39,964 bases of DNA from Rhodospirillaceae bacterium (GTDB lineage: Bacteria > Pseudomonadota > Alphaproteobacteria > SMXQ01). Location of the stretch: positions 1-39,964 of the forward strand of contig CANJIM010000025.1 of NCBI GenBank assembly GCA_947474495.1, in the 5' to 3' direction. The translations under genes and the position numbers were made by a program. Shown here piece after piece: positions 1 through 9,297 of the stretch. Position 1 is the first letter of the stretch; every line of letters begins with the position of its first letter. The notes beneath the pieces are model-generated. The model ran no database searches, had not been told where the DNA came from, and saw only the letters and a program-made list of their open reading frames with translations.

Positions 1-85
1 CGCTCGCCGTGCCGCCTTGCGCCAGTACGATCTCTGCCTCGCGCAGCTTGCCGATGATCTCTTCAGGCCCGTGTCTCTTGCCCAT
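1..85 (-). CDS. IS3-family transposase OrfA, 5' part only
   Basis: Reverse-strand reading from ATG at 83-85 gives 28 residues beginning MGKRHGPEEIIGKLREAEI and continuing to the window edge. This N-terminus is characteristic of OrfA proteins of IS3-family elements, which carry a helix-turn-helix DNA-binding domain and are joined to OrfB (DDE integrase) by programmed frameshifting. A Shine-Dalgarno-like GAAGGAGAG lies just upstream (about 89-97 on the plus coordinates). Only the first few turns of the helix-turn-helix region are present here, so intactness of the transposase cannot be judged. Confidence 0.75.
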   Translation of the reverse strand, partial: MGKRHGPEEIIGKLREAEIVLAQGGTAS

Positions 86-148
86 TTTCTCTCTCCTTCA
101 GGGTCCACACTAAAATAGTCGATGGACCACTCTGAAGGGGGCAGATCA
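1..148 (-). mobile_element. IS3-family insertion sequence, terminal part (left end)
   Basis: The first 148 bases look like the end of an IS3-family element whose body lies off the left edge. Seen: the start of an OrfA-type transposase on the minus strand (ATG at 83-85). Reading outward on the minus strand, a terminus beginning TGATCTGCCCCCTTCAG starts at position 148, and TG is the usual first dinucleotide of IS3-family inverted repeats. The roughly 60 bases between this end and the orfA start codon fit the family layout. The other end, the matching inverted repeat and the target duplication are outside the window, so the boundary at 148 is inferred. Confidence 0.62.
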
Positions 149-688
149 AACCGCCCACCCCTGATGCCGAGCAAACCGGATTATGCCGGCGCAGTTGCCG
201 GTATTGTCGGCCAGCAGGCCGGCGCGCGCGCCGGTGGGCCGATGGCCCAAGTGTCGGAGGACAACCGGCTGATCGTCGGACGTAATATCCAGCTCAAGGG
301 CGAGATCGGCGCGTGCGACACGCTGGTCGTCGAAGGCCGCGTCGAGGCCTCGATGAAGAGCCGTATCATCCAGACCGCCGAAAGCGGCGTCTTTATCGGC
401 GAGGCGGACGTCGAGACGGCCGAAATCAGCGGGCTGTTCGAGGGCAAGTTGACGGCGCACAAACGCCTCGTCGTCCACGCCACCGGTCAGGTGAAGGGCA
501 CCGTGCGCTACGGCTCGATCGTCATCGAGGAAGGCGGCCGGGTATCCGGCGACGTCAAGGACATCGAAGCCGGCGAGCCGGTTCAACGCAGCGCATCGAG
601 CGCTCCGCAAGCGGTCCCGTCGCAGCCGATCGGCGAAGTCGGGCGCGCCACGGACGCCAGCCAGCCGAAGTTCGCAACGCTGCCGTAA
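122..688 (+). CDS. Bactofilin (polymer-forming cytoskeletal protein), 5' end altered by IS
   Basis: Bactofilins self-assemble into membrane-associated filaments that localise cell-wall enzymes. The protein has a short disordered N-terminus, a central right-handed beta-helix domain (about residues 48-150; repeated hydrophobic/glycine pattern such as RLIVGRNIQLKGEI, LVVEGRVEA, GVFIGEADV, EISGLFEGKL, GQVKGTVRYGSIVI) and a disordered tail rich in Ser, Ala and Pro. The open frame reaches ATG 122, but codons 1-9 (122-148) appear to be IS sequence. An internal ATG at 164 is the first start clearly outside the IS. Neither ATG has a good Shine-Dalgarno, so the native start and promoter were probably displaced. 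The beta-helix core is intact. A hairpin terminator follows the stop. Confidence 0.82.
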   Translation: MDHSEGGRSNRPPLMPSKPDYAGAVAGIVGQQAGARAGGPMAQVSEDNRLIVGRNIQLKGEIGACDTLVVEGRVEASMKSRIIQTAESGVFIGEADVETAEISGLFEGKLTAHKRLVVHATGQVKGTVRYGSIVIEEGGRVSGDVKDIEAGEPVQRSASSAPQAVPSQPIGEVGRATDASQPKFATLP

Positions 689-695
689 CCGCGAT

Positions 696-729
696 AAAGC
701 CGGCGCGGGCTTGTGTTCGCGCCGGCTTT
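696..729. terminator. Bidirectional hairpin terminator between bactofilin and DUF2794 genes
   Basis: Arms AAAGCCGGCGCG (696-707) and CGCGCCGGCTTT (718-729) are perfectly complementary with a 10-nt loop. A T-run follows on the plus side, and the A-run provides Ts for the minus side. It sits between two convergent genes, so it can serve both. Confidence 0.75.
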
Positions 730-739
730 TCGTTGCGAG

Positions 740-1117
740 TTAAACGAGACGCAGTTTGCGGTCGAAAATTTCCAGCGCGCCTTCCAAAGTGGCGCTGCGG
801 CGCAGGCGCTCGCCGCCGCTCATGATCAGCCATTGGCCGTTGCGCCGCTGGCCGCCCAGCTTGACCACCGAGTAGATCGGTTTGGCCAAGGCATGCTGGA
901 ACATCGAAAAGATCGCCGCGCCTTCGCCATGGTCGATGGCATAGGCTTTCCATTCGCCGGCGATCACATGGCGGCTGTAGACGGCGATGAGCTGATTGAG
1001 TTCGGTGCGGGCGAACACCACGAGGCTCTTGCGCCCACTTTTGGACGACGACTTGCCGAGTTGCTCCTGCGCCGCCTTGCGCGCCTGAAAATCGGAAATC
1101 CGGACCAACTGTGTCAT
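740..1117 (-). CDS. DUF2794 family protein
   Basis: A 125-residue protein typical in length and sequence of the alphaproteobacterial DUF2794 family, whose biochemical role is unknown. Recognisable segments include a basic N-terminal stretch after MTQLVRISDFQARK, then FARTELNQLIAVYSRHVIAGEWKAY and a C-terminal GGERLRRSATLEGALEIFDRKL. The reading frame is open further upstream to 1264, but that extension has arginine/proline-rich composition and no family similarity, so the ATG at 1115-1117 is preferred. No clear Shine-Dalgarno precedes it. The gene converges on bactofilin and diverges from the yfgM-like gene. Confidence 0.8.
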   Translation of the reverse strand: MTQLVRISDFQARKAAQEQLGKSSSKSGRKSLVVFARTELNQLIAVYSRHVIAGEWKAYAIDHGEGAAIFSMFQHALAKPIYSVVKLGGQRRNGQWLIMSGGERLRRSATLEGALEIFDRKLRLV

Positions 1118-1452
1118 CGACGGCGACCACGCCCTCCGTACGGTCTCCGGGGCGCGAATCTGCGTCTCGGGGCTATGGGCAAGTCTTCCCCAAATCGGTG
1201 GCGCCGTCCAGTTGCGCGGCCCGTCATGGTGCGGGGCGTCGGCTTTTTGCCGACCGGGGCCCAAAAAAGCCTTATTCCATTGCGATTATTGGCTTTACGG
1301 CCCTGCGTCGGCGGTGGCCAGATCGGCGTTCGGGGCCGCTTTGGGGTTTCATTAATATCGCTTTTAGGCTAAGGAGTTAGGCCCTTTTACGGCGTCCGGA
1401 CGGCGGTTATCACCGCAGCGTCCGCTGCCTCTCATTCCGGCCTTTGCCCCCT
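1118..1452. other. 335-bp divergent intergenic region
   Basis: This is the only gap over 300 bases. No gene, tRNA or known RNA was recognised. It should hold both promoters for DUF2794 (minus) and yfgM-bamB-der (plus), but I could not pick either with confidence. Two structures are visible. One is a short perfect hairpin GTCGGC-TTTTT-GCCGAC (1238-1254). The other is a larger stem-loop at 1397-1424 (CGGACG GCGGT / ACCGC AG CGTCCG) about 29 bases before the yfgM-like start codon. Confidence 0.6.
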
Positions 1453-2133
1453 ATGGATAATTTCATTCAAGAGATCGAAGAGGACATCCGCCACGACCGG
1501 CAGATGGCCCTCTGGAAGAAATACGGCCGCTTCGCCGTGGCCATTGCCTTGCTCACCATCATCGCCGTCGCGGCGGTGCTGTTTTGGCGGCAATACACGG
1601 CACGCGAGCAGTTGAAAGATGGGCTCGCCTACATGGCGGCGATGGATCTCGCCGGCCCGCAGGTCGATCCGGCGACCGGTTCGCCCTCCGCCGCCGGCAC
1701 GCCCGACGCGGCGATCGGCGCGCTGCGCGATCTCGCGAGCAAAAGCACCGTGGGCTATGCCGCGCTATCGCGCCTACAGGAAGCCGCGCTGCTGTCGAAG
1801 TCCGGCAAGGCCGCCGAGGCGTCCGCGATCTACCAGAATATCGCCAATGACTCGCGCAGCGACAAAGTGTTCCGCGATCTGTCGCTGATCTTGCTGGCCC
1901 TGCAACAGATCGACAGCGCCGAGCCCAACGATCTCGCGGCCCGCTTGGCGCCGCTCACCGCCAGCGGCAATCCGTGGCGCTATTCGGCGCTGGAGCTGAC
2001 GGGCCTGCTGGCCGCGCGGGCCGGCGACACGTCAAAAGCGAAAGATGCCTATGCCACTCTGTCGGACGATCCAGGCACGCCGCGTCAATTGCGCGCCCGC
2101 GCTGCCGAGATGCTCGCGGTGTTCGGTGGCTGA
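1453..2133 (+). CDS. YfgM-like membrane-anchored TPR protein
   Basis: A 226-residue single-pass membrane protein. It has an N-terminal cytoplasmic segment MDNFIQEIEEDIRHDRQ, one transmembrane helix at about residues 27-47, then an alanine-rich helical periplasmic domain with degenerate tetratricopeptide repeats (TPR_21 / YfgM type). In enterobacteria YfgM associates with SecYEG and periplasmic chaperones. Its place directly before bamB and der matches the classical yfgM-bamB-der order, which supports the assignment. The ATG at 1453 is preferred over an in-frame TTG at 1444 because the family begins with this acidic motif. No Shine-Dalgarno is evident, and a hairpin precedes the start. The stop lies 4 bases before the chosen bamB start. 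Confidence 0.8.
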   Translation: MDNFIQEIEEDIRHDRQMALWKKYGRFAVAIALLTIIAVAAVLFWRQYTAREQLKDGLAYMAAMDLAGPQVDPATGSPSAAGTPDAAIGALRDLASKSTVGYAALSRLQEAALLSKSGKAAEASAIYQNIANDSRSDKVFRDLSLILLALQQIDSAEPNDLAARLAPLTASGNPWRYSALELTGLLAARAGDTSKAKDAYATLSDDPGTPRQLRARAAEMLAVFGG

Positions 2134-2137
2134 TCTC

Positions 2138-3460
2138 ATGCGCCGCACGGTTCTCCTATTTGGTATGGTCGCGCTGCTGCCCGCGCTGGCAGCTTGCGAT
2201 TGGCTGTACGGCGCAAGCAAGCCGCCGCCGTTGCCGGGCGATCGGATCGCCGTCATGCAGTTCGAAGCGTCGCTCAAGCCGGCCCCTGAATTGGCCGGCG
2301 AGCCGATTGCGGTGCCGGAGCCGCGCGTCAATCCTGATTGGCAGCAAGCCTTCGGCGCCGGCAACCATGTCTCGGGCCACTTGCAGTTCGCCGACGCGCC
2401 CAAGCGCGTTTGGAGTTCGAGCATCGGCCATGGGTCGGATTCCTCGCGCAAACTGCTCGGCCAGCCCATCGTCGCAGAAGGTATGGTCTTCGCCATGGAT
2501 TCGAGCGGCGAAGTGACCGCCCACCGGCTCGAAAACGGCAGCAGAGTCTGGAAGAAGGACATCACGCCAGACGACGAATCCGACGGCCCGCTCGGCGCCG
2601 GCTTGGCTTACGCCGACGGCAAGCTCTACGCCACGACCGGCTTTGCCGAAGTGGTCTCGCTCGACGCCAAGACCGGCAAGGAATTGTGGCGCCGCAAGGT
2701 CTCCGGCCCGGCCCGCGGCTCTCCCGCCGTCGCTGGCGGCCGCGTCTTCGTCGTCTGCATCGACAACACCAGCTACGCGCTCTCGGTCGACGATGGCCGC
2801 GTGCTGTGGAACCACTCGGGCACCAGCGAAGGCGCCGGCCTGCTCGGCGCCGCGACACCGGCTGTGGAAGGCGACGTCGTCGTCATCGCCTACAGCTCGG
2901 GCGAGCTTTACGGCCTGCGCGTGACCAATGGCCGCCAAATCTGGGCCGACTTCCTGTCGCTGCCGCGTCGTATCAGCGCGGTCTCCGATCTCAATGATAT
3001 TCGCGCTTCGCCGGTCATCGCCGGCGGCCGCGTCTATGCCGTCGGCAACGCCGGCCGCATGGTATCGATCGTTGTCGGGACCGGCGCGCGCGCCTGGGAC
3101 CAGCGCATCAGCGGCGTGCAGACACCGTTGCTGGCCGGCGACGTCATCTATGTGCTCAACACCGACAATGAGCTGATCTGCCTGTCGGCGCGTGATGGCC
3201 GTGTGCGCTGGATCAAGCAATTGCCGCGCTACGAGGACGAAGAGCGCAAGCGCAAGCCGATCGATTGGTCCGGCCCAGTGCTGGCCGGCGACCGTCTGAT
3301 CCTCGCCGGCTCGCATGAAATGGCGATGTCCGTCTCGCCCTATAGCGGCGAGATCCTCGGTCAGAGCGATTTGCCGCACGGGGTCCGGATAGGGCCCATC
3401 GTCGCGCAGAACACGCTCATCTTCCTGACGGATAACGGCGACCTGGTCGCCTATAGGTGA
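2138..3460 (+). CDS. bamB: Outer membrane assembly lipoprotein BamB
   Basis: BamB is a periplasmic lipoprotein of the BAM complex that scaffolds BamA during outer-membrane protein insertion. The 440-residue product starts with a lipoprotein signal peptide whose lipobox LAAC places the lipidated cysteine at residue 20. The rest is an eight-bladed PQQ-like beta-propeller with recurring blade motifs such as GKLYATTGFAEVVSLDAKTGKELWRRK, GRVFVVCIDN and LSARDGRVRWIKQL. The open frame extends to 2045, but only the ATG at 2138 (or a GTG at 2126 overlapping the previous stop) gives a proper signal peptide. It lies between yfgM-like and der, and its stop precedes the der ATG by only five bases, indicating one transcript. 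Confidence 0.93.
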   Translation: MRRTVLLFGMVALLPALAACDWLYGASKPPPLPGDRIAVMQFEASLKPAPELAGEPIAVPEPRVNPDWQQAFGAGNHVSGHLQFADAPKRVWSSSIGHGSDSSRKLLGQPIVAEGMVFAMDSSGEVTAHRLENGSRVWKKDITPDDESDGPLGAGLAYADGKLYATTGFAEVVSLDAKTGKELWRRKVSGPARGSPAVAGGRVFVVCIDNTSYALSVDDGRVLWNHSGTSEGAGLLGAATPAVEGDVVVIAYSSGELYGLRVTNGRQIWADFLSLPRRISAVSDLNDIRASPVIAGGRVYAVGNAGRMVSIVVGTGARAWDQRISGVQTPLLAGDVIYVLNTDNELICLSARDGRVRWIKQLPRYEDEERKRKPIDWSGPVLAGDRLILAGSHEMAMSVSPYSGEILGQSDLPHGVRIGPIVAQNTLIFLTDNGDLVAYR

Positions 3461-3465
3461 CCAAA

Positions 3466-4866
3466 ATGGACGGCAAACGCCTCCCTGTCGTCGCCATCGT
3501 CGGTCGTCCCAACGTCGGCAAGTCGACGCTATTTAACCGCGTGGTCGGCAAGAAGATCGCCATTGTCGATCCGACTCCTGGCGTTACGCGCGATCGCCGG
3601 GAAGGCGAGGCGCGCGTCGCCGATCTCAAGTTCATTGCCGTCGACACGCCGGGCTTCGAAGACGAAATCGGCGAAAGCCTCGAAGCGCGTATGCAGGAGC
3701 AGACGGCCAAGGCTCTGGCCGGTGCCGATCTCGCGCTGATGGTGATCGACGCTCGCGCCGGCGTCACGCCGCTCGACGAGGCCTTCGCGCGCTGGATCCG
3801 CCCGATGAAGAAGCCGGTCCTGCTGCTCGTCAACAAATGCGAAGGCAACAAGGGCCGCGAAGGCATCGCCGAAGCATACAAGCTCGGCTTCGGCGAGCCG
3901 GTCGCCATCTCCGCCGAGCATGGCGAGGGGATCAGCGAGTTGTATGACGGTCTGCGCGCCCATCTCGAAGGCGCCCATCTCTCTTACGACGACCATGAAG
4001 AAGGTTTCGAAGGCGACATCGAGGCGGAGCCGGGCCTCGGCGACAAGCCGCTACGCCTCGCTATCGTCGGCCGGCCCAATGTCGGCAAGTCGACATTGAT
4101 GAACGCCTTGCTCGGCGAGGAACGCTCGCTGACCGGTCCGGAAGCGGGCATCACGCGCGACGCCATTGCCGTCGATTGGCTGTGGCAGGACAAGAAAGTG
4201 CGCTTGGTCGATACCGCCGGCCTGCGCCGTAAAGCCCGCATCGACGAGAAGCTTGAAAAGCTGGCCGGCGCCGACAGCTTCCGCGCCATCCGTCTGGCGC
4301 AGGTGGTCGTGCTGGTGCTCGACGCAACGATGATGCTCGAGCATCAGGACCTGACGATCGCTGCCCATGCCGCCGAAGAAGGCCGCGCGCTGATCATCGC
4401 CGTCAACAAATGGGATCTGATCGACGATCCGGCGACCGCCATCGGCAAGCTGCGCGACCGTATCGAGACGTCGCTGCCGCAAGTGAAGGGCCTGCGCTTC
4501 TTCCGCATCTCGGCCCAGCATGGCGAGGGGCTCGACGATCTGATGGCCGGCGCCTTCGAAGCCTTCGACCATTGGGACACGCGCATTTCCACGAGCAAGC
4601 TCAACCGCTGGCTCGAACATGCGCTGGAAGCCAATCCGCCGCCGGCGCCGCATGGCCGCCGCCTAAAATTCCGCTATATGGCGCAATTGAAAGCGCGGCC
4701 GCCGACCTTCGCGCTGTTCATCAGCCGGGCCGACGAAGTGGCCGACAGCTACCTGCGCTACCTCGCCAATGGCATTCGCGACACCTTCGGCCTGCAGGGC
4801 ACCCCGATCCGCTTCTCCTTGCGCGCCGGCAAGAACCCCTACGCACCGGACGAGAACAAGCGTTAG
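3466..4866 (+). CDS. der: Ribosome biogenesis GTPase Der (EngA)
   Basis: Der has two tandem GTPase domains and acts in 50S ribosomal subunit maturation. Both P-loops read GRPNVGKST (first at residues 13-21, second near residue 203). The first domain has DTPGFED as G3 and NKCEG as G4. The second has DTAGLRRK and NKWD. A C-terminal KH-like domain (about residues 355-440) follows, containing PPAPHGRRLKFRYMAQ. Length 466 fits the family. The start was placed at ATG 3466 because AGGTGA at 3455-3460 is a well-spaced Shine-Dalgarno. An in-frame GTG at 3457 overlapping the bamB stop is possible. It is convergent with the SDR gene 30 bases away. Confidence 0.95.
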   Translation: MDGKRLPVVAIVGRPNVGKSTLFNRVVGKKIAIVDPTPGVTRDRREGEARVADLKFIAVDTPGFEDEIGESLEARMQEQTAKALAGADLALMVIDARAGVTPLDEAFARWIRPMKKPVLLLVNKCEGNKGREGIAEAYKLGFGEPVAISAEHGEGISELYDGLRAHLEGAHLSYDDHEEGFEGDIEAEPGLGDKPLRLAIVGRPNVGKSTLMNALLGEERSLTGPEAGITRDAIAVDWLWQDKKVRLVDTAGLRRKARIDEKLEKLAGADSFRAIRLAQVVVLVLDATMMLEHQDLTIAAHAAEEGRALIIAVNKWDLIDDPATAIGKLRDRIETSLPQVKGLRFFRISAQHGEGLDDLMAGAFEAFDHWDTRISTSKLNRWLEHALEANPPPAPHGRRLKFRYMAQLKARPPTFALFISRADEVADSYLRYLANGIRDTFGLQGTPIRFSLRAGKNPYAPDENKR

Positions 4867-4881
4867 CAGGCGCGTGGCGCC

Positions 4882-4896
4882 CGACGACAATCGTCG
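4882..4896. terminator. Possible short convergent terminator hairpin
   Basis: CGACGA (4882-4887) and TCGTCG (4891-4896) form a 6-bp stem with a CAA loop in the 30-bp gap between the convergent der and SDR genes. There is no T-run on either side, so an intrinsic terminator is only a weak proposal. Confidence 0.25.
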
Positions 4897-5616
4897 TTAG
4901 ACGCCGACGACTTCACCCTGCCGGGTTTCCTCGGCGCTCGCCATCGGCACCATCACTTCCGCGACGTCTTCCGGCGGCTTGACCGTTTGCGGATCTTCGC
5001 CGGGGAAGGCTTCGGCGCGCATGCGCGTGCGCGTGCGGCCGGGATTGAGCAGGTTGGCGCGGATGGCGGTCTTGCCCAGTTCGCCGGCCCAGGTCCGCAC
5101 CATGCTTTCGAGCGCCGCCTTGCTCGCCGCATAGGCGCCCCAATAGGGATGCGTGCCCTGCGCCACCGTCGAGGTGACGAAGATGGCGCGCCCCGCGGGC
5201 GACAGTTTCAGCAGCGGCTCGCAGATGCGGATCAAGCGCCAGTTGGCGGTGACGTTGACAGCGAAGACGCGCTCCCACACCGGCGGATCGATATGGCTCA
5301 TCGGGCTGAGCGTGCCGAGCTGGCCGGCGTTGCCGACGAGAATGTCGAGCTTGCCGAAACGTTCGAGAATGGCCGGGCCGAGCTTGTCGATCTCGGCGCC
5401 TTTGGCGAGATCGAGCGGCACCAGCGTGGCATTGCCATGGCCGGCCTTGCGGATCTGATCGTCGACTTCTTCGAGGCCGCCGACCGTGCGCGCCGTGAGG
5501 ATGACTTGCGCGCCTTCGGCGGCGAACCGCTTGGCGACGGCGGCGCCTATGCCGCGCGACGCGCCGGTGATCAAGGCGACGCGACCGGCGAGGCGGCCGT
5601 TCGTTGTATCCGTCAT
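4897..5616 (-). CDS. Short-chain dehydrogenase/reductase (SDR) family oxidoreductase
   Basis: A 239-residue classical SDR using NAD(P)H. The Rossmann motif TGASRGIG lies at about residues 17-24, NAG in LVGNAGQ near residue 96, a catalytic serine in the VTSTV segment, and YAASK as the catalytic Tyr-x-x-x-Lys. The sequence resembles the YciK-like group of uncharacterised SDRs found beside purF in many alphaproteobacteria, but the substrate cannot be inferred. The start is 7 bases downstream of the purF stop, making it the last gene of the dnaB-to-purF run. No membrane segment or fusion is seen. Confidence 0.88.
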   Translation of the reverse strand: MTDTTNGRLAGRVALITGASRGIGAAVAKRFAAEGAQVILTARTVGGLEEVDDQIRKAGHGNATLVPLDLAKGAEIDKLGPAILERFGKLDILVGNAGQLGTLSPMSHIDPPVWERVFAVNVTANWRLIRICEPLLKLSPAGRAIFVTSTVAQGTHPYWGAYAASKAALESMVRTWAGELGKTAIRANLLNPGRTRTRMRAEAFPGEDPQTVKPPEDVAEVMVPMASAEETRQGEVVGV

Positions 5617-5623
5617 GCCGGGC

Positions 5624-7096
5624 TCAGCGCCGCCCGGCGCGACGCAGGACTTCGGTCAGGAACGAGAGCTGCGCCGGCTTTTCCGTGCCATCCATATCGG
5701 TCAGGCGGATCGGATATTCGCCGCTGAAGCAGGCGTCGCAATATTGCGGGCGCTCGGCATTGCGGCCCGGCTCGCCCATGGCGCTATAGAGGCCGTCCAT
5801 CGAGATGAAGGCCAGCGAATCGACACCAATGAACTGCGCCATTTCGGCGATCGAGTAGCGCGCGGCGAGCAGTTTATCGCGCTCGGGCGTGTCGACGCCG
5901 TAGAAGCAGGGATTGGTCGTCGGCGGGCTGGCGATGCGCATATGCACTTCCGTGGCGCCGGCGGCGCGCATCATCTCGACGATCTTCTTCGAGGTGGTGC
6001 CGCGCACGATCGAATCGTCGACCAGCACGATGCGCTTGCCCTTGATGTAGGCGCGGTTGGCATTGTGCTTGAGCTTGACGCCGAGGTGGCGGATCTGGTC
6101 GGTCGGCTCGATGAAGGTGCGGCCGACATAGTGGTTGCGGATGATGCCGAGCTCGAACGGGATACCCGATTCGTTGGCGTAGCCGATGGCCGCCGGCACG
6201 CCCGAGTCGGGCACCGGAATGATCATGTCGGCGTCGACGCCGCTTTCCTTGGCCAGTTCGATGCCGATGCGCTTGCGCGCGTCGTAGACCGAGACGCCTT
6301 CCATCACCGAGTCGGGGCGGGCGAAGTAAATATATTCGAAGATACAGGGGCGCTTGGTGGTGGTGCCGAACGGCTTGAGGCTCTCGACGCCCTTTTCGTT
6401 GATGACGACCAGCTCGCCGGCCTCGATATCGCGCACGTAGTCGGCGCCGATGATGTCGAGAGCGCAGGTTTCCGAGGCGAGGATATAGGCGTCGTCGAGC
6501 TTGCCGAGCACCAGCGGGCGCACGCCGAGCGGGTCGCGCACGCCGATCAGGCCGTCTTTGTGCAGGCCGACCAAGGAATAGGCGCCCTCGACCTGGCGCA
6601 GGGCGTCGATCATGCGCTCGACCACCGTCTCATGGCGGCTGATCGCCATGAGATGGATGATCACTTCGGTGTCGGTGGTCGATTGGAACAGGCTGCCCTT
6701 GCGCACCAGGTCCTGGCGCAACGTCACGGCGTTGGTCAGGTTGCCGTTGTGGCCGATGGCGAAGCCGCCGTACTGGAAGTCGGCGAACAGCGGCTGGATA
6801 TTGCGCTCGATGGTTTCGCCGCTGGTCGAATAGCGGTTATGGCCGATGGCCGAGCGGCCGGGCAGGCGGCGGATCGCCGCTTCGCTGGAGAAGATGTCGG
6901 CGACATGGCCGAGGCCGCGGTGGCTGTTGAAGCGCGCGCCGTCGTAAACGACCATGCCGGTCGCCTCTTGGCCGCGATGCTGCAGGGCGTGCAGGCCGAG
7001 CGCTGTTAGCGCCGCGGCGTCTTCATGGCCGTAGACGCCGAAGATGGCGCATTCTTCATGAAGATGGTCGTCTTCGAACGGATGGGTGGTCAGCAT
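5624..7096 (-). CDS. purF: Amidophosphoribosyltransferase PurF
   Basis: PurF catalyses the first committed step of purine synthesis: PRPP plus glutamine to 5-phosphoribosylamine. The N-terminal Ntn glutaminase domain begins with a propeptide ending in HEE before the catalytic Cys16 (ECAIFGVYG). Glutaminase motifs HRGQEATGM and GHNGNLTN follow. The C-terminal phosphoribosyltransferase domain shows the PRPP-binding loop VLVDDSIVRGTTSKKI and a CDACFSGEYP tail. Length 490 is typical of the B. subtilis-like type that carries a propeptide. The gene lies 3 bases after cvpA, an association also known in enterobacteria. Confidence 0.96.
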   Translation of the reverse strand: MLTTHPFEDDHLHEECAIFGVYGHEDAAALTALGLHALQHRGQEATGMVVYDGARFNSHRGLGHVADIFSSEAAIRRLPGRSAIGHNRYSTSGETIERNIQPLFADFQYGGFAIGHNGNLTNAVTLRQDLVRKGSLFQSTTDTEVIIHLMAISRHETVVERMIDALRQVEGAYSLVGLHKDGLIGVRDPLGVRPLVLGKLDDAYILASETCALDIIGADYVRDIEAGELVVINEKGVESLKPFGTTTKRPCIFEYIYFARPDSVMEGVSVYDARKRIGIELAKESGVDADMIIPVPDSGVPAAIGYANESGIPFELGIIRNHYVGRTFIEPTDQIRHLGVKLKHNANRAYIKGKRIVLVDDSIVRGTTSKKIVEMMRAAGATEVHMRIASPPTTNPCFYGVDTPERDKLLAARYSIAEMAQFIGVDSLAFISMDGLYSAMGEPGRNAERPQYCDACFSGEYPIRLTDMDGTEKPAQLSFLTEVLRRAGRR

Positions 7097-7099
7097 GGG

Positions 7100-7762
7100 T
7101 TACTGCGTTCCCTCGATAAGGCGGTCCATCTCTCTGCGTTCTTCCGGTTTATAACCCGGCCCCTGATTGGGGGGCACGGGGTTGGACGCGGTCGACGTGG
7201 CGGATGGGGGTGAAGCGGGGCGTGGGGCGGTATCGGTGCGGCGTTCGGCATTGGGCCGGTAGCCGCTGTTGCGGACATGGGCCGGCGCGAGCGAATAGAG
7301 GAAGTCGGCGCCGCGCTCCATCAGCGGCGCGGTGCGCGCGGCTTGCACCCAGGCGGGCTGCTCGCGCGGCGGAATGGCCCAGCTGAGGCCCATATAGACC
7401 AGGCAGATCAGAACGGCGCCGCGCGCCAAGCCGAAGACGAACCCCAGCGTGCGGTCGACCGAACCGGCGGCCGTGCCGCGCACTGCGCCGGCAATGGTCC
7501 CGCTGATGATCGACAGAATGAACAGCACGACGAGGAAGATGCTGGCGCCGGTGACGACGTTGGCGATCGTCGGCTCGCTGATCAGGCGCATCACGTAGGG
7601 GCTCAGGATGTCGAAGCCGTAGAAGGTGGCGAAGGCGGCGCCGATCCAGCTGAAGATCGCGAGCACTTCGCGCACCAGGCCGCGCGCCAGGGCGAAGACG
7701 CCGGACAACAGGATGACGACGATGACAATCAGATCGACGAGGTTGAAGCCGAGAACCTGCAT
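7100..7762 (-). CDS. cvpA: CvpA family inner membrane protein
   Basis: CvpA (colicin V production) proteins are inner-membrane proteins conserved next to purF, with an incompletely defined role in envelope homeostasis. The 220-residue product has four predicted hydrophobic segments, at about residues 7-25, 32-50, 66-88 and 103-125, within the CvpA domain. The motif GLVREVL follows the first segment. The C-terminal 75 residues are hydrophilic and rich in Pro, Ser, Thr and Arg, a variable tail. It sits 14 bases downstream of radA and 3 bases upstream of purF. Confidence 0.9.
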   Translation of the reverse strand: MQVLGFNLVDLIVIVVILLSGVFALARGLVREVLAIFSWIGAAFATFYGFDILSPYVMRLISEPTIANVVTGASIFLVVLFILSIISGTIAGAVRGTAAGSVDRTLGFVFGLARGAVLICLVYMGLSWAIPPREQPAWVQAARTAPLMERGADFLYSLAPAHVRNSGYRPNAERRTDTAPRPASPPSATSTASNPVPPNQGPGYKPEERREMDRLIEGTQ

Positions 7763-7776
7763 GGCCTAACGCGTCC

Positions 7777-9297
7777 TCACTCGTACGGGGCGAAATCGAT
7801 GTCGGGATCGGCCTGCTGGGGAGCAGCCTTGGGGCGTTTGCCCCCTTCGCCTTTTTGGGCCGCGCCTTTGGGGGCTTGGCCGGGGGTAACGCTGAAGAGG
7901 CGCAGCAGGTCGTTCAAATGGCCGATCTCCGTCACTTGCAGGCCACCGGGAGAAGTTTCCCGCTTACCTTTATCACGTTTCGACGGCGCTGCCTTGGGCG
8001 CGAACGCCTGGGCGAAGCCGAGTTTTGCCGCCTCTTTGAGACGGGAATCGCGCTGGCCGACCGGGCGGACCTCGCCCGACAGGCCGATTTCCCCGAAAAC
8101 CACGGTTTCCGGCGGGGTCGGCGTGTCCGCCAGGGAGGAGATCAGCGCCGCCGCGACCGCCAGGTCAGCAGCGGGCTCGGAGATCTTCAAGCCGCCAGCG
8201 ACGTTCAAATAGATATCCAGGCCGCCCAAAGCAAGCCCGCAGCGCGCATCGAGCACCGCCGTGATCATGGCGAGGCGGCCGCTATCCCAGCCGACGACGG
8301 CGCGGCGCGGCGAGGCGAGCGAGGAAGGGGCGACCAACGCCTGGATTTCGACCAGGATCGGTCGGGTGCCCTCCATGCCGGCGAAGACGCAGGAGCCGGA
8401 GACGCGGCCCTCGCGCTCGCCGAGGAACAGGGCGGAGGGGTTGGCGACTTCGCGTAGGCCGCCGTCGGTCATTTCGAACACGCCGATCTCGTCGGTCGGG
8501 CCGAAGCGGTTCTTCACGGCGCGCAGGATGCGGAATTGGTGGCCGCGCTCGCCTTCGAAATAGAGCACCGTGTCGACCATATGCTCGAGCACGCGCGGGC
8601 CGGCGATCTGGCCTTCCTTGGTCACATGGCCGACCATGATGACGCTGATGCCGCGGCTCTTGGCGAGGCGGATCAGCGCTTGGGCGCTGGCGCGCACCTG
8701 GGCGACCGTGCCGGGGGCCGATTCCAGGCTGTCGAGATACATGGTCTGGATCGAATCGACGATCACGGCGCGCGGCGCGTCCGGCTGCTCCATGGTCGCC
8801 AGGATGTCGGCGACGTCAGTGGCGGCGGCGAGTTTCACCGGCGCGTCGGACAGGCCGAGGCGGCTGGCGCGCAGGCGCACTTGATCGAGCGCCTCTTCGC
8901 CGGAGATGTAAGCGGCGCCCCCTTCGCTGCGCGCCAGGGCGGCGGCGGCTTGCGTCATCAGGGTGGATTTGCCGATGCCGGGATCGCCGGCGACCAGGAT
9001 GGTCGAGCCGGCCACCAGGCCGCCGCCGAGCACGCGGTCGAGCTCGGCGATGCCGGTGAGGCGGCGGGCCTCTGGGAGCGTGCGGCCGGTGAGGGGCTGG
9101 AATTCGATACGCCGGCCGAGCGCCTTGCCGGAGGCGCCGCTGGCTTTCAGGGCGTTCTTGAGGGCGCCGGGCGGGGCCTTGGAGACCGCTTCTTCGACGA
9201 TGCTGTTCCACGCGCCGCAGTTATCGCAGCGACCGGCCCAGCGGCTGGTGACAGCGCCGCATTCCTGACAGACGTAGCGGGCCGCCCCGCGCGCCAT
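7777..9297 (-). CDS. radA: DNA repair protein RadA (Sms)
   Basis: RadA is a RecA-like hexameric helicase that promotes branch migration during recombinational repair. Domains in order are a zinc finger C10-x2-C13 ... C24-x2-C27; a RecA-like ATPase with Walker A GDPGIGKST at 104-112; the RadA signature KNRFGPTDEIGVF; and a C-terminal Lon protease-like P domain, including PAADLAVAAALISSL. The catalytic Lon serine is not expected in this family. Length 506 exceeds E. coli RadA (about 460), mainly through a linker after the zinc finger and a lysine/proline-rich tail (about residues 425-506). The ATG directly abuts the mlaF stop. Confidence 0.95.
   Translation of the reverse strand: MARGAARYVCQECGAVTSRWAGRCDNCGAWNSIVEEAVSKAPPGALKNALKASGASGKALGRRIEFQPLTGRTLPEARRLTGIAELDRVLGGGLVAGSTILVAGDPGIGKSTLMTQAAAALARSEGGAAYISGEEALDQVRLRASRLGLSDAPVKLAAATDVADILATMEQPDAPRAVIVDSIQTMYLDSLESAPGTVAQVRASAQALIRLAKSRGISVIMVGHVTKEGQIAGPRVLEHMVDTVLYFEGERGHQFRILRAVKNRFGPTDEIGVFEMTDGGLREVANPSALFLGEREGRVSGSCVFAGMEGTRPILVEIQALVAPSSLASPRRAVVGWDSGRLAMITAVLDARCGLALGGLDIYLNVAGGLKISEPAADLAVAAALISSLADTPTPPETVVFGEIGLSGEVRPVGQRDSRLKEAAKLGFAQAFAPKAAPSKRDKGKRETSPGGLQVTEIGHLNDLLRLFSVTPGQAPKGAAQKGEGGKRPKAAPQQADPDIDFAPYE

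Follow-up and report, generated by a model that had tools for sequence, protein, structure and literature searches.

Insertion sequences (IS) of the IS407 group of the IS3 family are about 1.2-1.3 kb long when complete, carry orfA and orfB and generate a target-site duplication of 4 bp. IS407 itself is said to have been called gene-activating in the title of a 1991 paper. In ordinary IS disruptions, the element comes to lie inside a coding region and the start signals of the gene are removed. Among bactofilins, BacA is a studied member whose N-terminal region binds the membrane. An N-terminal membrane-targeting peptide is common, though not universal, among bactofilins. For such peptides, the consensus MFSKKKK has been given (PMC12448750). 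For the combination of bactofilins with insertion sequences or transposases, the available text of a Deinococcus paper treats bactofilin as a merged gene only (PMC11219805), and we do not claim that cases like the present one are unreported.

The locus described here shares with ordinary disruptions an element that lies within a coding region and lost start signals, and differs from them in that the bactofilin frame stays open into the IS. With a probability of roughly 0.85, the left end of an IS407-group IS3 element has replaced the start region of the bactofilin gene, by insertion or by IS-adjacent deletion, and the gene is most likely silenced. It represents an ordinary disruption by an IS, affecting one of the three bactofilin paralogs, and provides a clear case of a multicopy IS disrupting a gene in a fragmented genome.

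The Insertion Sequence End

The window, i.e., the whole stretch of DNA analyzed (bases 1-39964), is contig 25 of a host genome assembled to 2.99 Mb in 127 contigs (96% complete), and since the contig is broken within a repeated IS, its first bases belong to that element. We assigned the following features, with G001 denoting the sole other genome of the same genus that was compared:

1-148, minus strand: left end of an IS3-family (IS407-group) IS, cut by the contig start (identical contigs and 22 termini)
2-85, minus strand: start of transposase OrfA, 28 codons, running off the contig (translation MGKRHGPEEIIGKLREAEIVLAQGGTAS; sibling copy in L044)
122-148, plus strand: nine IS-derived codons from ATG 122, in frame with bactofilin and without a Shine-Dalgarno sequence
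137-148, minus strand: outermost 12 bp of the left inverted repeat, TGATCTGCCCCC (genome copies; printed IS407-group element of Sphingomonas ERG5)
149-688, plus strand: 5'-truncated bactofilin gene, 179 codons and stop (PF04519; 87% identity to the G001 ortholog from M164)
272-556, plus strand: complete bactofilin core domain (residues 51-145 of the frame starting at 122, profile positions 2-97/98)
740-1117, minus strand: convergent DUF2794 gene (PF10984; 96% identity to G001, which has the same neighbor)

The 12-bp terminus TGATCTGCCCCC, located at 137-148 on the minus strand, occurs in 22 exact copies in the host genome (11 forward, 11 reverse; 0 for the reversed control pattern), and the sequence outside it is different at all 22. 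Therefore, the element ends at window base 148, which bears out the preliminary description in placing the IS edge near this position and leaves no room for an end well before 122. The best 40 of 66 candidate matches to window bases 1-148 include identical sequence (100% over 126-149 bases) on 10 other contigs and 12 additional matches of 77-99% identity; those that run past the edge do so by only 1-3 bases, which we read as chance. The minus strand from 85 to 2 translates as MGKRHGPEEIIGKLREAEIVLAQGGTAS, beginning with MGKRHGPEEIIGKLREAEIVL, in agreement with the earlier assignment of an OrfA start.

With the assembly fragmented and a contig end 148 bases away, the junction might also be a chimera in which IS and bactofilin DNA were wrongly joined. 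Since eight of the 11 identical copies, the window included, extend 147-149 bases into the IS before their contig ends, as graph breaks in a shared repeat do, the contig start is read as a repeat break. The IS moreover stops exactly at its own terminus, and we regard an assembly artefact as highly improbable.

Terminal inverted repeats of the 5'-TG...CA-3' type known from IS407 are present (TGATCTGCCCCC on the left, TGATCGGCCCCC on the right), and the right end in the host genome consists of TGATCGGCCCCC, a variable stretch and GTCC, adjoined by an rve_3 transposase. Both proteins expected of an IS3/IS407 element, an OrfA with an HTH_Tnp_1 domain and an OrfB with a DDE integrase core (rve), were found in sibling fragments: a longer, diverged OrfA in L044 matches PF01527 (HTH_Tnp_1), and an OrfB fragment in L076 matches PF13683 (rve_3). 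Matches to the IS3 transposase model NF033516 (E 5e-07, 29 bits; E 4.4e-30, 105 bits) both lie under its cut-off of 160, as expected of fragmentary OrfA and OrfB queries. For the OrfB fragment, there is a further match to an IS481 model (9.3e-22), less good than that to IS3, and weaker ones to other models. Judged by these sequence features, the element is an ISSpma1-like member of the IS407 group of the IS3 family.

A printed counterpart is the IS of Tn6228 from Sphingomonas sp. ERG5, placed in the IS3 family, group IS407, and 84% identical to ISSpma1 (PMC3877037). The first 15 bases of its left repeat are the same as in the host, the sixteenth differs and GAGTGGTCCA follows; its right end is of like kind (GGCCCCC...GAGTGGTCC; PMC3877037). 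The two left ends share 81.6% identity over 141 bases and are thus not identical. The left end was matched by 40 plasmid records (four at 80-90% and 36 at 60-80% identity), of which 37 come from five genera that we take to be Sphingomonadales and three from Acidiphilium. Among the matches listed, eight of 15 plasmid relatives (75.8-81.6% identity) carry an IS3 transposase annotation; those of L105 and L106 are 1266 bases long. No full-length copy was found in the host regions read. Among the best 40 of 49 candidates, 11 of 12 relatives' genomes lacked a match to the left end, the twelfth (G008) having one of 48 bases (E 3e-6). From this distribution, the element probably reached this genome recently and then multiplied in it.

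The Bactofilin Remnant and an IS-Free Congener

The remnant matches PF04519 with an E value of 1.5e-17 and 64 bits (cut-off 27.9), and, in line with the intact beta-helix core that had been proposed, the profile is covered over positions 2-97/98. Its open frame counts 188 codons from ATG 122. A TAG stop at 116-118 and a single codon precede this ATG, the nine codons that begin with it end at base 148, and five native codons (NRPPL) then lead to M164, the first ATG outside the IS. The coordinates given previously for these two ATGs and the nine IS codons are correct.

In G001, the bactofilin, DUF2794 and TPR_21 genes follow in the same order in the absence of the element, whose left end has no match in this genome among the best 40 of 49 candidates. 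Its bactofilin gene is whole: a Shine-Dalgarno sequence GAGGAGGG lies before the ATG (L010:1429, preceded by GAGGAGGGCCCT), from which 24 codons lead to the counterpart of M164. From M164 onward, the window gene is 87% identical to this ortholog. The alignment resumes at base 149 (AACCGCCCACCCCTGATG in the window, AGCCGCCAGCCGGTGATG in G001), while over 122-148 the two have only scattered bases in common; an IS-free locus with the same sequence across 122-163, which would have told against the preliminary description, was not encountered. Consequently, the native start appears to have been lost in the window gene, and by comparison with this single IS-free congener the element would have replaced the first 19 codons, which read MAFRDRIVSKDSNSKDEAA in G001, together with the ribosome-binding site and the promoter. 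The preliminary description had the IS at the 5' end of the gene, where it indeed lies, except that the edge falls inside the coding region, 19 codons past the native start. The replacement of the native start and promoter also stands when measured against this one relative; the "insertion" may instead be an IS-adjacent deletion, from which it cannot be told apart here.

The nine IS codons share the reading frame of the gene since the edge happens to coincide with a codon boundary (149). Any right-strand gene with a codon boundary at this base would join the ATG, by our own reckoning one in three, so the fusion is not remarkable and the in-frame ATG would be a chance result of the edge position. 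Of the 22 IS ends, two lead into frames longer than 100 codons, those at the bactofilin gene (179) and on contig C32 (606); two more have 97 codons behind a TTG. On C32 (L049, bases 100-1944), the left IS end continues in frame into a gene for an NAD-specific glutamate dehydrogenase, of which it adjoins the final 606 codons.

Between the window and G001, the bactofilin gene has a dN/dS of 0.11, compared with 0.055 (DUF2794) and 0.123 (TPR_21) for its neighbors. The intact frame and the value of 0.11 give no sign of decay, which counts against silencing, yet a late insertion would show none either. As an inter-species dN/dS reflects the history of the species, it says little on the time after the IS event.

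Expression Signals and Fate of the Gene

A scan of window bases 1-800 for a sigma-70-like promoter returned 0 sites, with 0.1 expected for the IS end (the consensus covers sigma-70 only), and two terminator-like sites (0.7 expected). The IS-borne signal on which expression had been suggested to depend was thus not detected as far as outward promoters of the sigma-70-like kind are concerned. Neither ATG 122 nor ATG 164 is preceded by a Shine-Dalgarno sequence; farther along the frame, ATG 353 is accompanied by a Shine-Dalgarno-like stretch but sits within the core domain.

The IS end might nevertheless supply both transcription and the ATG at 122, yielding a bactofilin that begins with MDHSEGGRS and lacks the native N-terminus. 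Such a donated start would fit the in-frame ATG and the open frame of 188 codons, and the reported "gene-activating" title of IS407 makes an outward promoter of a non-sigma-70 type possible. The empty sigma-70-like scan of bases 1-800, the missing Shine-Dalgarno sequence at ATG 122, the in-frame stop at 116-118, the one-in-three chance of an in-frame join and the two of 22 ends that enter a frame of more than 100 codons all argue against it, and we consider it unlikely. Less likely still is its extension, in which the IS end works as a gene start and the third bactofilin becomes a soluble polymer placed via client proteins or the two paralogs.

Under the preferred reading, a multicopy IS407-group element with its left end facing outward sits inside the 5' part of the bactofilin gene and, as measured against G001, has taken the place of the first 19 codons, the Shine-Dalgarno sequence and the promoter; the remnant would be silent or very poorly expressed, and two bactofilin paralogs remain. 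Most likely, the gene is silenced or its product made very poorly, an N-truncated protein at best. Any protein made would keep the core domain and lack the native N-terminus, which would correspond to the membrane-binding region of BacA. Its expression would make it a naturally occurring N-terminal deletion of a bactofilin; failing that, the case is of local interest only. In either event, ATG 122 should not be annotated as the native bactofilin start. Some cells may have the whole site, if the genome is a metagenome bin.

Three PF04519 matches, the window gene included, were found in the host genome. The two paralogs, on contigs C6 and C11, have open frames that start with MFGRKK and MFTKAKK and resemble the MFSKKKK consensus. 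In the window gene, an N-terminal membrane-targeting peptide is absent by sequence from either start (MDHSEGGRS from ATG 122, MPSKPDYAG from ATG 164). The G001 N-terminus MAFRDRIVSKDSNSKDEAA is itself unlike the consensus and not typical, so that membrane binding by the lost N-terminus, judged by G001, is a guess. In eight of nine other genomes of the same family, the best bactofilin match among the candidates listed starts with M(F/L)xxxK; for the remaining one (G007, L017), the first three candidates were listed. These matches may be orthologs of the C6 paralog and not of the window gene.

Insertion or IS-Adjacent Deletion

After a plain insertion, the native 5' part of the gene should be found next to a right IS end. 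Of 17 right-end matches, four without the exact terminal motif were left out, and none of the 13 right ends compared adjoins native bactofilin codons. The sequence AACC, which flanks the IS at the bactofilin junction, is likewise absent from these 13 flanks, AAC being found at one (C82) that otherwise does not resemble the gene and lacks its 5' end. Against 1090 bases of G001, the 13 flanks gave a best E value of 0.06, and no peptide score exceeded 20 of 96. Inspection of the 22 left and 13 right flanks by eye shows CGAC and CAAT on both sides between other ends, and AACC lacks a convincing counterpart. A clear target duplication is likewise not apparent in two plasmid relatives (GAAG/CCTC and CGAT/TGTG). 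When the missing left half was sought in the own genome with 121 bases from the start of the G001 gene region, 17 weak matches were returned; the best (E 0.0139, 41 bases; C103), which we read as lying within a clpB-like gene, was rejected.

As a variant of the preferred reading, an IS-adjacent deletion or IS-IS recombination might have removed the 5' end of the gene together with kilobases upstream. Besides the 13 right-end flanks, none of which shows the native 5' end or a terminal AACC, this is consistent with searches of the host genome with DNA from upstream of the G001 gene, in which no match of at least 100 bases exceeded 81% identity among the best 40 of 225, 518 and 253 candidates. 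With 10,950 bases as the query, 63 matches were obtained, the first of them along the query at base 7614 (best 40 of 518 candidates), and upstream bases 4000-7999 gave three short matches (133, 50 and 35 bases long, 74-89% identity; best 40 of 253 candidates), two of which are absent from the 10,950-base listing; bases 1-3999 were covered by the 10,950-base search only. A similar gap is seen at the IS end on C32, where the first 267 of 497 positions of the glutamate dehydrogenase catalytic domain were not found in the genome, its sole match to this domain covering positions 268-496 of 497. On the other side, at 96% completeness and with 127 contigs and many breaks at this IS, the left flank may simply be unassembled, G001 may be alone in having the upstream block, and searches that scored the best 40 of 225, 518 and 253 candidates do not prove absence. 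Removal by deletion or recombination is therefore possible, at somewhat less than even odds. The missing left sides of the bactofilin gene and of C32 reflect either an assembly gap or an IS-adjacent deletion, and the consequence for the bactofilin gene is the same whether insertion or deletion took place.

Other Copies of the Element

Internal left-end copies in L038, L039 and L042 (contigs C30, C49 and C119) are apparently devoid of a full transposase, judged by the frames listed, and are perhaps solo or decayed ends. L044 (C38, about 1896-3319) has a diverged left IS end, in which OrfA is truncated, and about 1.4 kb away an inverted partial match to the same end; a 350-codon frame between them looks by eye like an alpha/beta hydrolase, possibly representing an IS with a passenger gene. 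On plasmid pCADAB1 of Sphingomonas ERG5 (L105), a site-specific integrase is annotated at 1558-2610, reaching 110 bases into a related IS end; as this end starts at 2501, the C-terminus of the annotated integrase is IS-derived.
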